From the NCBI RefSeq assembly GCF_003966735.1, contig NZ_AP017378.1, positions 1,101,501-1,165,500 of the forward strand: a stretch of DNA of 64,000 nucleotides. The letters are read 5' to 3'. Position numbers and translations under genes: made by a program. Numbering within the stretch: position 1 is the stretch's first letter; each line of letters opens with the position of its first letter. The stretch is from Desulfovibrio ferrophilus. Lineage in GTDB: Bacteria > Desulfobacterota > Desulfovibrionia > Desulfovibrionales > Desulfovibrionaceae. Positions 1,688 to 34,540 of the stretch are shown here, piece by piece. A model generated the notes under the pieces. The model did no database searches, was not told the DNA's origin, and saw only the letters and a program-made list of their open reading frames with translations.

Positions 1688-1854
1688 AGGACAAACCCTC
1701 CAGCGTTCGAACAGGTGGGCGGCCTGAAAATGATGTGACGAAAAACCGGATCCCGGCGAAATACCGAAAACCGGGGCTGTACCGGACGCATACTTGTCAC
1801 GTCGGACCCGCCAGACAAATGCCCTCGTTGCCCGGGCGGCGAGTACAGGTCTTC

Positions 1855-2050
1855 ATGGCAGGTCTTCTGGCTCTTCCGGTTTCCGGCTCCCCTTCCCGTT
1901 CAGACTGCGCATTGCACACAACTAAACAGTGGGTCTTGTGAGCGGAAAACTTCCTCTGCGGGAGCAAAGGCCGGAATCACAGCGGCGGGGCCGCCCCGGA
2001 TTCACACCGGGTTCCCTATTATCGTCCCTGGAGAACGACCATCAAGCGAG
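1855..2050 (-). promoter_or_regulatory. Cobalamin riboswitch
   Basis: Read on the minus strand, the region contains the ordered conserved blocks of the adenosylcobalamin riboswitch. GGGAACCCGGTGTGAATCC lies at about 2016-1998. The CCCCGCCGCTGT core lies at 1990-1979. The 3' B12-box GCCAGAAGACCTGCC lies at 1871-1857. About 170 bases separate the B12 box from the cbiK start, leaving room for an expression platform. It should lower cbiK-permease expression when cobalamin is plentiful. Confidence 0.93.
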
Positions 2051-2060
2051 GGCGAAATTA

Positions 2061-6676: not shown

Positions 6677-7641
6677 AACGCATCCTGATTGTTATCATGG
6701 CCTGCATGGCCCTGACCGCCTGCGTCAAGGCTGACGATGTCCGGACACTGGACAATCGCGTCTACGAGCAGAAACTGCGTCTCGACGGGATTGAAGGTAA
6801 AGTTGAACAGTTGACGAGCGTCGACCCGCAAAAGGCCGATACCTGGTCACAGGTCCAGAGCATGCGTCAGGAACTGGCGGATGCTCGAAATGAGTTGGAC
6901 GCCCTGAATCGTGAAATTCAGACCCTGAAGGCAGACAGCGAAGCCATCGAAGTTGTGGCCGAAGACGTCAAGGACCTGAAAATCGGATGGCAACGCCTGA
7001 ATTCCCAGCTGGGAACCGATGTAGATCTGATGGCCATTCGTGCCGAGCGGACACCGGTCCCGGCCTTGCCTACTCCAGATACAACAGAAGCCGCCGATGC
7101 CGTCACCAGTGAGGCTACAGCCGCAACTGACGCAGCAAACGTAGAGACACCTGCAACTGATACGCCTCTCCCCGCAGCTGATCCGGCTGCCAGCACTGAA
7201 GCTGCTGCTGTTGCGCCTGCCGCAACCCCGGCACCCGCTGCACAGCCCGCTGTTGCAGTCAATGCTGACGCCGCATCGACCCTCTACAAAAGTGCCCGTG
7301 CAGCCTTCGAAGCCCGAGATTATCGTCAGGGCATCGCCCTGTGGGACGAGTTCGCATCCACTTTTGAAAGCCACAAGCTTGTTCCGAACGCCCTCTTCTG
7401 GCAGGGTGAATGCTATTATCAAATGAAGGATTACGCTCGTGCGGTACTCAAGTACCAGGTCGTTATCGACAAGTATCAGAAGAGCCCCAAGTATCCCACA
7501 GCCCTTCTGAAACAAGGTATTTCCTTCATGCGTCTGGGGCGCGTAAAGGCCGGGAAACTCCTGTTGGCCGATGTTGCCAAGAAGTTCCCAAAGGCTGCCG
7601 AAGGCAAACGCGCCGAAGCTATCCTGAAAAAAATGAACTAA
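6673..7641 (+). CDS. YbgF/CpoB-type tetratricopeptide lipoprotein
   Basis: 322 residues. MKRILIVIMACMALTAC ends in a lipobox, so the protein is a lipoprotein of the periplasmic side. Residues about 25-95 form a coiled coil of the YbgF trimerisation type. A long Ala/Pro/Thr-rich linker (about 120-200) follows, and then a TPR-like C-terminal domain (about 205-320) that starts LYKSARAAFEARDYRQGIAL. This arrangement is that of CpoB/YbgF, which links cell-wall synthesis to Tol-Pal during division. No tol or pal genes are visible nearby. The start at 6673 overlaps the previous stop. Processing by the adjacent lspA product is expected. Confidence 0.85.
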   Translation: MKRILIVIMACMALTACVKADDVRTLDNRVYEQKLRLDGIEGKVEQLTSVDPQKADTWSQVQSMRQELADARNELDALNREIQTLKADSEAIEVVAEDVKDLKIGWQRLNSQLGTDVDLMAIRAERTPVPALPTPDTTEAADAVTSEATAATDAANVETPATDTPLPAADPAASTEAAAVAPAATPAPAAQPAVAVNADAASTLYKSARAAFEARDYRQGIALWDEFASTFESHKLVPNALFWQGECYYQMKDYARAVLKYQVVIDKYQKSPKYPTALLKQGISFMRLGRVKAGKLLLADVAKKFPKAAEGKRAEAILKKMN

Positions 7642-7681
7642 CTACGGGCTCCGGGTGCATCCCGGAAAGTCGGAGATTCTC

Positions 7682-8119
7682 ATGGCCATTACCAGCAAGA
7701 CTCAGCGCAAGGTCGTTTATCTGAAGTTTCCACCGGAACGTTCAGGGCGCCCTATCATGTGCAACCTGACCAGGCTCTTTGATTTGACCTTCAATATTCT
7801 GTCGGCGCATATCCTGCCGCGAGGCGAAGGCCGAATGACTCTTGAGCTGACCGGGACGAGTGACAATTATAAAAAAGGCATTGAGTACCTGAAAGACCAG
7901 GGAATCAAGACCGAAAACGTTGCCCAAAAAATTTCACGCGACGAAGAAACCTGCATTGACTGTGGACTGTGCACGTCACTGTGCGCAAGCCAGGCTCTGT
8001 CCGTGAACCCTGAATCCCGAAAGGTTGAATTCGACTCCGAAAAATGCACGGCCTGCGGCATGTGCACTCGGGTCTGTCCGGTCAATGCCATGAACGTTGA
8101 GCTGGAAAACGGCGATTAG
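7682..8119 (+). CDS. NIL-domain 4Fe-4S ferredoxin
   Basis: 145 residues. The N-terminal 75 residues match the NIL domain, a small substrate-sensing fold also found at the C-terminus of methionine ABC ATPases. The C-terminus holds two 4Fe-4S motifs, CIDCGLCTSLCASQA and CTACGMCTRVCPVNA. Stand-alone NIL-ferredoxins are common in sulfate reducers and methanogens and have been linked to homocysteine or methionine biosynthesis; the role here is inferred. The ATG at 7682 has GGAG about 6 bases upstream. The PilZ-like gene follows within 16 bases. Confidence 0.88.
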   Translation: MAITSKTQRKVVYLKFPPERSGRPIMCNLTRLFDLTFNILSAHILPRGEGRMTLELTGTSDNYKKGIEYLKDQGIKTENVAQKISRDEETCIDCGLCTSLCASQALSVNPESRKVEFDSEKCTACGMCTRVCPVNAMNVELENGD

Positions 8120-14790: not shown

Positions 14791-15201
14791 ATGAAACAAT
14801 GGATCAAGGTAATGATGTTGATCGCTCTGTCGATCATCTGGACAGGTTCGAATATGCAGGCGTCAGCGGAGCAAATACTCCCCGAAGGTTCATTCCTCGT
14901 GGCGCAGGACGACACCCAAGCCGATGAGGATTCATATCGCCAGGAGAGAATGGAAAACCTACAGAAGCAACATAAACAGGAAGCAGAAGCTCTCAGGGCA
15001 AAACATAAAACCGAAATGCAGGAACTTCGCGACAAGCACAAAACAGAAAGGGAAGCTCTGCACAATGAAATCAAGCAGGACAAAAAGCAGATGCGTGAAC
15101 AACGCAAGGAAGAAAATAAAGCCCAAAGGGCCTTGAAAAAGGAAGAACGGAAAAGTTCAAAAAAGATCTCAAAGGGTAAAAAGACCGATTCGGATGATTA
15201 A
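14791..15201 (+). CDS. Hypothetical secreted coiled-coil protein
   Basis: 136 residues, not recognised. Residues 1-27 form a signal peptide (IALSIIWTGSNMQASAEQ). From about residue 48 onward the protein is almost all charged residues with repeating KHKTE/RDKHKTE heptads, a long single-helix or coiled-coil pattern, and a very basic Lys/Ser end. An excellent CAGGAGG precedes the ATG. It is flanked by the nad terminator and by the 3' end of the converging predicted small RNA. A periplasmic structural or chaperone-like role would be a guess. Confidence 0.7.
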   Translation: MKQWIKVMMLIALSIIWTGSNMQASAEQILPEGSFLVAQDDTQADEDSYRQERMENLQKQHKQEAEALRAKHKTEMQELRDKHKTEREALHNEIKQDKKQMREQRKEENKAQRALKKEERKSSKKISKGKKTDSDD

Positions 15202-15248: not shown

Positions 15249-15283
15249 CAAAAAGACCCCGGCCCCTTGAACAGGGGCCGGGG
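15249..15283 (-). terminator. Terminator of the predicted small RNA
   Basis: On the minus strand a perfect 10-bp stem, CCCCGGCCCC/GGGGCCGGGG, with a 7-base loop is followed by TCTTTTT. No T run exists on the plus side, so it serves minus-strand transcription only. Confidence 0.85.
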
Positions 15284-15385
15284 GGAGGGTTTCGCAGGAT
15301 TCCTCGGGGGGGACGAGGAACCCCTTGAGGGGCATATGGACTGAGGAGGAGTGTCCTATCGAAGGAGTTTGCGTTGCCTTCGTTG
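15249..15385 (-). ncRNA. Predicted small RNA with C/U-rich hairpin loops
   Basis: About 137 nt with no open reading frame of note. In transcript order the hairpins are as follows. Hairpin 1 (15382-15360) is CGAAGG/CCTTCG. Hairpin 2 (15356-15338) is GGAC/GTCC with loop ACTCCTCCTCA. Hairpin 3 (15332-15321) is CCCC/GGGG. Hairpin 4 (15320-15300) is TTCCTCG/CGAGGAA with loop TCCCCCC. A single-stranded CCCTCC tract follows, then a Rho-independent terminator. The loop of hairpin 2 contains CCTCCT, the exact complement of the Shine-Dalgarno core AGGAGG. Multi-hairpin RNAs with exposed anti-Shine-Dalgarno loops are known in other bacteria as translational repressors; that role here is inferred. A terminator at 15541-15570 isolates it from the upstream gene, so it must have its own promoter. 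Confidence 0.7.
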
Positions 15386-15395
15386 CAAGACATAT

Positions 15396-15411
15396 TACAA
15401 TCGCCGTGCCA
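15396..15411 (-). promoter_or_regulatory. Sigma-54-like promoter of the small RNA
   Basis: The minus strand reads TGGCACG-GCGA-TTGTA. The -24 element is perfect, the spacing is right, and the -12 element has T in place of the usual C of TTGC. The expected start is near 15385, just before the first hairpin. A TAATAT at 15397-15392 could instead be a sigma-70 -10 box, but no good -35 box lies 17 bases upstream. Confidence 0.5.
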
Positions 15412-15472
15412 AAAACTATCCTATTGATATTTATACATTAAATAAACTTAAGTGTTTGAAACAGACTCGGCT

Positions 15473-15533
15473 TGTGCAGCATTATGCACAGCAATGTGCA
15501 GCAGTCCGTGCCGCGTATTGCACATCTTGCACA
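15473..15533. promoter_or_regulatory. TGTGCA half-site cluster (possible activator site)
   Basis: A perfect dyad TGTGCA-N6-TGCACA at 15473-15490 is followed by three more half-sites, TGTGCA at 15495 and TGCACA at 15519 and 15528. The dyad centre lies about 97 bp upstream of the expected small-RNA start, a usual distance for a sigma-54 enhancer-binding protein. AT-rich DNA with a TATCAA element (minus strand, 15429-15424) lies between the dyad and the promoter and could bind IHF. Confidence 0.5.
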
Positions 15534-15540
15534 TCTTCAC

Positions 15541-15570
15541 AAAAAAGCCCCGGTCCATTGGACCGGGGCT
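15541..15570 (-). terminator. Terminator of the lipoprotein gene at 15595
   Basis: Perfect 11-bp stem AGCCCCGGTCC/GGACCGGGGCT with a 3-base loop, followed on the minus strand by TTTTTT. Confidence 0.88.
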
Positions 15571-34027: not shown

Positions 34028-34540
34028 ATGGGGATCTATGAAAAGCTACTTGAATTGTCGGATGCGCAGGGTGAGCCCGCGGCGCGTACAATTTCACAGG
34101 AAAAAATAATCAAATACGCCTGCATGGTCACACAGCTCTCCCAAGATCTGCCTGATCAAATCATCCAAAAGCTTCAAGCAGACAGCGAAATCCGCACCGA
34201 TTTCTTTACGCTGGTGAATGGCTGCACTCCAGACGATGACACTCAAAATGCCAGATCCCTGATGAAAACGTTGCAGAACACATCCCTGGGCAAGGCTCCT
34301 GTCATACTATCGATTATCATCACTTCAGGTTTCTTTCTCGTCCTCATTCTGGTCATCCTCTCAGCGACCCTGAACTTGAACCTCGGGGGCAACAAGGAGC
34401 TCGTATACCTGCTTGTGGGCACCATGACCGCCGGCTTCACTCAGGTCCTCAATTTCTGGCTGGGCTCCTCGAAAGGCAGCTCGGACAAAATGAGTCTGCT
34501 CTTTCACCAGTTTTCGAAAAAGCCCAAGACGGATCAATAA
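34028..34540 (+). CDS. Two-helix membrane protein, holin-like
   Basis: 170 residues. The first 88 residues are soluble and helical. Two transmembrane helices follow, about 91-113 and 124-146. The second runs into NFWLGSSKGSSDK (142-154), a motif I associate with small phage and prophage membrane proteins of the holin type (consensus like NYWFGSSxGSxxK). The soluble N-terminus is unusual for a simple holin. GGGGGAGAG precedes the ATG. It is first of a four-gene plus-strand group. Function unknown; a phage-derived lysis or membrane-sensing role is only inferred. Confidence 0.65.
   Translation: MGIYEKLLELSDAQGEPAARTISQEKIIKYACMVTQLSQDLPDQIIQKLQADSEIRTDFFTLVNGCTPDDDTQNARSLMKTLQNTSLGKAPVILSIIITSGFFLVLILVILSATLNLNLGGNKELVYLLVGTMTAGFTQVLNFWLGSSKGSSDKMSLLFHQFSKKPKTDQ

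Follow-up and report, generated by a model that had tools for sequence, protein, structure and literature searches.

GlrR is the sigma54 activator of the enterobacterial small RNAs GlmY/GlmZ, and the Vibrio Qrr sRNAs are linked to Hfq. According to the excerpts available from its report, the cuckoo-type RNA NfeR1 has three CCUCCUCCC motifs in unpaired regions, which silence targets redundantly, and acts independently of Hfq (PMC10746234). The accessible passages on the sigma54 regulome of D. vulgaris Hildenborough list four ncRNAs, namely Dv_sRNA2 downstream of DVU0679, one downstream of DVU0653, and two upstream of DVU3282 and DVU2357, respectively (PMC3333781, PMC4641369). In the same passages, the ncRNA upstream of DVU3282 is assigned to the regulon of DVU1419, which carries the label envelope stress, and the DVU1419 motif is 18 bp long and reported upstream of DVU1418 (PMC3333781, PMC4641369). 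The ncRNAs of O. alaskensis G20 have been surveyed computationally, and the abstract of that study names other RNAs (PMC11124144). No report of an sRNA of anti-Shine-Dalgarno (anti-SD) form in this group, of an enhancer shared with zraP, or of the sRNA described here was found in the open-access excerpts retrieved. An earlier note on this DNA knew of no described Desulfovibrionales sRNA of this form, which holds for the anti-SD form within the literature searched; ncRNAs controlled by sigma54 and response regulators are already published for D. vulgaris in the passages available (PMC3333781, PMC4641369).

The window, which is the whole 64,000-nucleotide stretch analysed, contains on its minus strand a locus that is very likely a genuine sRNA gene. 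Within the genus, the sRNA was compared with one other genome, G001 (G000 denotes the genome of the window). The transcription unit and its control region comprise the following predicted features.

15249..15385, minus strand: small RNA of about 130-137 nt, with the predicted +1 at 15385
15250..15283, minus strand: intrinsic terminator with an 11-bp GC-rich stem (15283-15257) and a U tract
15396..15412, minus strand: sigma54 promoter TTGGCACGGCGATTGTA (-24/-12), with GT for GC at -12 and 16 of 17 positions the same in G001
15473..15490, minus strand: perfect 18-bp inverted repeat TGTGCA-N6-TGCACA, comprising half-sites -77 and -66, a putative site of a ZraR-like regulator
15496..15500, minus strand: enhancer half-site TGCAC at -88
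15519..15523, minus strand: enhancer half-site GTGCA at -111, with a -110/-111 copy also at the Metal_resist promoters of G000, G001, G023, and G060
15528..15532, minus strand: enhancer half-site GTGCA, -120 from the promoter start
15546..15570, minus strand: terminator-like hairpin 3' of a lipoprotein-like gene, which sets the sRNA unit apart

The sigma54 consensus is YTGGCACGNNNNTTGCW. The promoter element fits it except for T in place of C at -12, that is, the GG..GC signature of -24/-12 elements with GT for GC, and places the +1 at 15385. The 5' end given in the earlier note coincides exactly with this +1, and the promoter itself was absent from that note. No sigma70 promoter match was present on the minus strand near 15385. 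Five GTGCA/TGCAC half-sites lie upstream (-120, -111, -88, -77, and -66), the inverted repeat being the sole copy without mismatches in the genome, and the G001 locus likewise combines a sigma54 promoter with a similar series of half-sites.

The upstream flank of the sRNA is the terminator-like hairpin behind the lipoprotein-like gene, and beyond its other end lies the convergent nadA-nadB side (the neighboring genes are presumably nadA, nadB, and secDF, as their proteins suggest). A 61-aa ORF in the ORF list spans the sRNA strand (15393-15208), but its start is upstream of the +1 and the G001 relative has indels, one of them 1 nt long; the sRNA therefore looks noncoding, and a small-protein gene was discarded. 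This frame, and another of 61 aa that precedes CCTCC hairpins at one site of genus g50, might suggest a short mRNA encoding a small peptide or the leader portion of a longer message. Such a reading is very unlikely, since in the window the frame begins before the +1, the relative has the 1-nt indel, a strong terminator closes the unit, and the gene that follows lies on the opposite strand. Elsewhere in the window, a cobalamin riboswitch (1840-2058, minus strand) scores 89.4 bits, above the Rfam cut-off. Beside nadB, positions 14791-15201 (plus strand) encode a Lys/Glu-rich protein with a signal-like start, which shares 39% identity over 106 residues with that of G001, far below the values of its neighbors.

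The 137-nt RNA has a minimum free energy (MFE) of -56.9 kcal/mol, compared with a mean of -40.3 for dinucleotide shuffles (z, -5.04), and none of 200 shuffles was equally stable. Together with the terminator and the terminator-like hairpin upstream, this fold largely bears out the proposal of a minus-strand RNA from 15385 to 15249 with separated hairpins and a strong terminator. Its elements are as follows, with G068 being the third orthologue described below.

15360..15382, minus strand: hairpin 1, CGAAGG/CCUUCG, in the MFE structure, with the differences in G001 confined to the loop
15338..15356, minus strand: hairpin 2, GGAC/GUCC with loop ACUCCUCCUCA, in the MFE structure, with the CUCCUC core kept in G001 and G068
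15321..15332, minus strand: alternative hairpin 3, CCCC-UCAA-GGGG, read from the sequence and not in the MFE structure
15296..15324, minus strand: hairpin 4 with a C-rich loop, in the MFE structure, the loop being the same in G001 and the hairpin a different one in G068
15284..15289, minus strand: unpaired CCCUCC tract before the terminator, in the MFE structure

The segments CUCCUCCUC, the C7 loop, and CCCUCC are predicted to be unpaired. Two elements described previously, hairpin 2 with its exposed loop and a single-stranded CCCTCC tract ahead of the terminator (unpaired at 15289-15284), both appear in the MFE structure. Hairpin 4 retains the suggested loop of U and C only, but its 7-bp stem becomes 11 bp through the GGGG of hairpin 3 (CCCCTCAAGGGG); hairpin 3 and the long hairpin 4 are therefore mutually exclusive, and in place of four simultaneous hairpins plus a terminator, the MFE structure contains hairpins 1, 2, and 4 and the terminator. 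A CsrA sponge was rejected because the predicted loops contain no GGA. The CCTCC count is unremarkable for the composition (2 versus a mean of about 1.25 expected, for the window RNA and its close relative), and the weight of the motif in this RNA derives from conservation, not from count. The probability that CCTCC is unpaired was 0.95 versus 0.53 in shuffles for the window RNA, 0.83 versus 0.53 for G001, and 0.46 versus 0.27 for G068, and it lay beyond all 60 shuffles for the window RNA only, not for G001 or G068. An accessible anti-SD motif is kept in the relatives, and its core is present in all three orthologues.

Identity between G000 and G001 amounts to 16/17 positions in the promoter, 117/138 in the transcript, 42/71 in the enhancer block, 32/59 in the spacer, and 22/60 downstream, with the neighboring lipoprotein being 69% identical. 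In G001, a deletion trims the loop of hairpin 2 by 3 nt, and CCUCCUC and the GGAC/GUCC stem are kept. The third orthologue, in G068 of another genus, was reached solely via the promoter pattern; its secDF and nadB are 71% and 76% identical to those of the window, and the order secDF-sRNA-nadB is shared by G000, G001, and G068 (three genomes, two genera), with GGACAC..CUCCUC kept. The G068 sRNA retains the promoter TTGTAATA, a 5' hairpin with CGAA/UUCG, GGACACCUCCUC, CCCC-CAAG-GG, and the terminator, and has hairpin 4 swapped for a different hairpin. RNAalifold, a check suggested previously, showed no double compensatory changes in the stems (0 of 29 predicted pairs in three sequences), so no covariation is claimed for the window sRNA; the consensus of the three orthologues was poor. 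BLASTN over 59 genomes gave a convincing match, besides that in the own genome, in G001 only, and a search of 247 family genomes with a covariance model (R1), built from the two closely related sequences, yielded nothing convincing beyond the genus. The 20 weak R1 matches outside the genus (best E value, 2e-4) were set aside, the eight inspected being terminator-like or coding stretches. The neighboring lipoprotein, used as an anchor, was found in 2 of 199 genomes. A contig search with a degenerate hairpin-1 pattern returned 14 stretches, one being the known relative (L075) and 13 coming from unrelated taxa, which were discarded.

Elsewhere in the genome, a 15-base BLAST match to the sRNA promoter lies upstream of a Metal_resist (PF13801) gene whose protein has the ZraP model as its best NCBIfam match (66.6 bits). 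This zraP-like gene is followed by a histidine kinase gene and then a response regulator gene with receiver, sigma54-activation, and Fis-type domains. The operon promoter, TTGGCACGGCATGTGCT, has half-sites at -110, -90, and -65, among others, in a layout that resembles that of the sRNA, and enhancer sites are common to the sRNA and the regulator's own operon. Similar promoter/half-site layouts precede the Metal_resist genes of G001, G023, and G060, and those of G015 (CTGGCACG) and G078 (CTGGCATG) have a sparser layout with TGCAC half-sites only. The ZraP-like protein, the kinase, and the regulator all score below the Zra equivalog cut-offs, and the latter two score higher to AtoS/AtoC; thus, "ZraSR-like" describes the operon and implies no proven orthology. 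Regulator orthologues with 63-90% identity occur in eight other genomes compared, the remaining matches shown reaching at most 48%; that of G089 aligned to residue 399 in one comparison and nearly over its full length in another. All nine genomes of this comparison have both sites and regulator. At a threshold of E <= 1e-140, the regulator was detected in 34 of 35 site-bearing genomes, which were selected by hand with one to several from each genus, versus 24 of 45 without strict sites (Fisher p, 7e-6, a statistic that ignores lineage). The lone site-bearing genome without the regulator is 62% complete, and two of the 24 genomes with the regulator and no strict site (G015 and G078) matched an earlier promoter pattern. 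The sRNA is likely under the control of the ZraSR-like system. At 15 uM copper, zraP showed the strongest decrease of all genes in D. alaskensis G20, according to the portion of the report available (PMC8836040), so the metal response may run in either direction.

These results also bear on whether the locus is a mere bidirectional terminator between convergent units, on the nadB and lipoprotein sides, with GC-rich hairpins that mimic an sRNA. The terminator does sit between convergent genes, but the sigma54 promoter is conserved, the enhancer layout is common to the zraP-like operon, and the block kept in the second genus takes in the anti-SD sequence besides the terminator, which makes this extremely unlikely.

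The pattern GTGCA-N12..42-TGCAC-N45..65-TTGGCACG-N5-TG matches 94 of 288 genomes of the family, which is presumably Desulfovibrionaceae judging by the earlier note and the gene content, and the reversed-pattern control gave one match among the genomes listed. Ninety distinct sites, a sample among the matches listed, were examined. Thirty-six precede a ZraP-like ORF, a class that is partly circular because it was called by a profile made from the eye-picked ORFs of 16 of the same sites (Metal_resist of Pfam was independently checked for the protein of L078 and by a genome search). Nine sites precede a small membrane protein (genus g4) and five precede other ORFs, both assigned by eye, and 40 are ncRNA-like, including 15 automatically flagged as "ORF" and reassigned by eye, with the 25 strict ones (no qualifying ORF) being tested apart. 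L082 and L085, from an earlier pattern search, were set aside as chance matches. Within the first <=300 nt of the 40 ncRNA-like sites, CCTCC occurs 82 times versus 38.5 expected, with at least one copy in 34, and the 25 strict sites have 42 versus 22.1 (standard deviation, 4.7; highest of 200 shuffle totals, 36), counts that are not independent events since sequences inside a genus are related. The motif occurs 7 times versus 14.9 expected from dinucleotide shuffles at the 36 zraP sites, 0 versus 3.2 at the membrane-protein sites, and 3 versus 3.2 at the other ORFs. Broken down by genus, g4, g2, g48, and one of two g50 sites show a clear excess, and g7 shows a modest one (one copy in each of six; 0.42 expected). 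In g1 and g56 the excess is slight, and within 300 nt there is none at the second g50 site or in g21; a CCTCC hairpin loop is present farther downstream in three of the g21 RNAs.

The unpaired probability was compared with that of shuffles in which CCTCC was held fixed for 37 of the 40 RNAs (three have no CCTCC), and it was above the shuffle mean in 26 of the 37. The native and shuffled values were 0.89 and 0.53 in g1, 1.00 and 0.63 in g7, 0.81 and 0.42 in g21, 0.70 and 0.53 in g4, 0.46 and 0.27 in g56, and 0.61 and 0.56 in g48; in g50 (0.32 and 0.44) and g2 (0.28 and 0.68), the native value was the lower of the two. In alignments of 8 of the 13 g4 ncRNA-like sites (one alignable type) and of all six g7 RNAs, double compensatory changes affect 11 of 56 and 8 of 30 predicted pairs, respectively, and CCTCC is invariant in both. 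The g7 motif is the loop of a covarying hairpin, and the g4 consensus has one invariant CCTCCTC single-stranded and the other partly paired. Half-sites near -111, -89, and -66 (within 2) are all filled at 13 of the 40 ncRNA-like and 7 of the 36 zraP sites, and the exact spacing varies across the family. A sigma54-dependent sRNA under the same regulator could also act by protein binding or by pairing in coding sequences or 5' leaders, with its C-rich loops as general seeds, and would then account for the C7 loop and C-rich tract not being strict SD complements and for CCTCC being predicted mostly paired in g50 and g2. However, CCTCC is specifically in excess and is invariant in two genera while the stems change, and we consider such action unlikely. 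Pairing with Shine-Dalgarno sites is the probable way in which the sRNA acts.

Three further arrangements were seen. In g4, the layout precedes a small membrane protein of the MEFLSAFGNWC... type (L187, L191, L193, L195, L197, L202, L205, L212, and L267), of which a 75-aa piece had no Pfam match and which is likely a further regulon member. In g50, a 61-aa frame (MHTPETCR...) followed by CCTCC hairpins was found at L156 (about 7580-7975, minus strand), L134, and L138 and, by reading, at L133 and L139; lying behind an enhancer and sigma54 promoter of the same kind, this element is perhaps a dual-function RNA. In g15 (L083 and L084), the protein behind a similar layout is small and exported and contains EF-hand-like DTNxDGxV repeats, as judged by reading.

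Hfq (PF17209) was found in none of nine genomes (G000, G001, G068, G060, G089, G114, G188, G119, and G002), the control search recovering it in 5 of 14 known genomes, which is consistent with Hfq-free action as in NfeR1 and is no proof of it. Such a mechanism would fit loop-based anti-SD pairing. The target check proposed in the earlier note was made as a ranking by duplex energy alone of 66 start regions, which came from simple gene calling and lie nearly all in the window, and is no target prediction. The hairpin-2 loop paired best with 8692(+) (CheZ), 34028(+) (no Pfam match), and 36605(-) (DUF554), and the C7 loop and CCCUCC tract also paired best with 34028(+). For the hairpin-2 loop, zraP ranked 26 and the regulator 20, so feedback of the sRNA on its own system is unsupported. 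The gene at 34028-34540 (plus strand) encodes 170 aa, and its start region, AGGGGGGGAGAGATC-ATG, is unusually rich in G and can pair with the C7 loop by complementarity.

The best explanation, with a probability of about 0.68 as a whole, is that the locus encodes a sigma54-dependent, Hfq-free sRNA of envelope or metal stress that pairs with Shine-Dalgarno sites and represses translation. It starts from the computed promoter, zraP-shared enhancer layout, terminator, fold, conservation, and co-regulated CCTCC-bearing ncRNAs and from Hfq not being found; from these we infer transcription, regulator binding at the sites, the signal, translation repression, and the targets. Upon envelope stress, by metal or other damage, a ZraSR/AtoSC-like two-component system, whose kinase and NtrC-type response regulator share an operon with a periplasmic protein resembling ZraP, would activate the sRNA through the GTGCA/TGCAC enhancer sites and the sigma54 promoter. 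The locus would yield a free-standing RNA of about 135 nt, whose unpaired CUCCUCCUC loop would pair with the Shine-Dalgarno sequences of chosen mRNAs, probably joined in this by the C7 loop and the CCCUCC tract. Pairing would block ribosome binding and lower the synthesis of some proteins, with no need for Hfq. The original proposal of a small RNA with exposed anti-SD sequences thus gains from the promoter, the terminator, the fold, two orthologues with GGACAC..CUCCUC, and the family set of CCTCC-bearing ncRNAs.

More tentatively, and with odds below even, the ncRNA-like sites may represent a class of stress sRNAs that spans the family, acts without Hfq, and preserves the controller (ZraSR-like system, enhancer, and sigma54 promoter) and the anti-SD segments, the remaining RNA turning over fast. 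Its members would together form a stress-induced brake on the translation of SD-strong messages. If so, one regulatory slot would have been refilled repeatedly by different RNAs of the same design, and sequence homology would be lost between genera while the design persists. The literature searches returned few reports on sRNAs in sulfate-reducing bacteria, and none of the nine genomes gave an Hfq match. For one sRNA, it is now possible to name a likely regulator, the class of signal (metal/envelope stress), a testable pairing element, orthologues, and a wider set of co-regulated sites. This sRNA would represent the anti-SD design independently of the alphaproteobacterial RNAs and provide a test bed for sRNA design outliving sequence.

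Among the known systems, ZraPSR of E. coli resembles the operon described here in combining a periplasmic Metal_resist protein, a kinase, and a sigma54 activator, but the proteins here score under the Zra equivalog cut-offs, and the kinase and regulator are nearer AtoS/AtoC. The portions of the ZraPSR literature available name no sRNA as a ZraR target. The D. vulgaris ncRNAs share the control by an enhancer-binding regulator and sigma54 proposed here, and the passages available give no sequence, fold, or anti-SD feature for them (PMC3333781, PMC4641369). In G089, a perfect TGTGCA-N6-TGCACA, at 18 bp equal in length to the DVU1419 motif, lies ahead of the HK-RR operon, but the gene after the RR reads as a lipoprotein, where the D. 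vulgaris legend, in the excerpt available, lists an Hpt domain. In the material available on Vibrio Qrr (LuxO/sigma54) and enterobacterial GlmY/GlmZ (sigma54, GlrR), a sigma54 activator likewise drives an sRNA, but these RNAs are unrelated and Hfq or RapZ linked, whereas no Hfq was found here.

A further comparison is with NfeR1/alpha-r14 (RF02344, ar14), which the earlier note had invoked as cuckoo-type RNAs. In a permissive Rfam search, the sRNA gave eight matches, all far under the cut-offs and two on the opposite strand, with the top score for ar14 (19.8 bits) and the lowest E value for Atu_C7 (18.0 bits; E value, 0.037). Nothing reached the gathering threshold, and the ar14 match (E value, 0.11; cut-off, 58.8 bits) gives no membership in that family. 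Three hairpins each with CCUCCUCCC are absent; the window RNA has one CUCCUCCUC hairpin loop, a C-rich loop, and a CCCUCC tract. As far as the excerpts on NfeR1 describe it, the likeness lies in a short multihairpin RNA with exposed C/U-rich anti-SD motifs and in the tie to a two-component system (PMC10746234), and the differences lie in one CCUCC loop, a C-rich loop, and a CCCUCC tract here versus three CCUCCUCCC motifs there and in a sigma54 promoter here versus one of sigma70 type there. In addition, NfeR1/alpha-r14 is alphaproteobacterial, and the host here, we infer, is not an alphaproteobacterium. The cuckoo comparison is therefore apt as a way of working, by the NfeR1 excerpts available (PMC10746234), and not as ar14 membership (19.8 versus 58.8 bits): if our reading is right, the sRNA works like ar14 but is not a member. 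In the best reading, it would be functionally like the NfeR1/cuckoo RNAs and stand outside their family.
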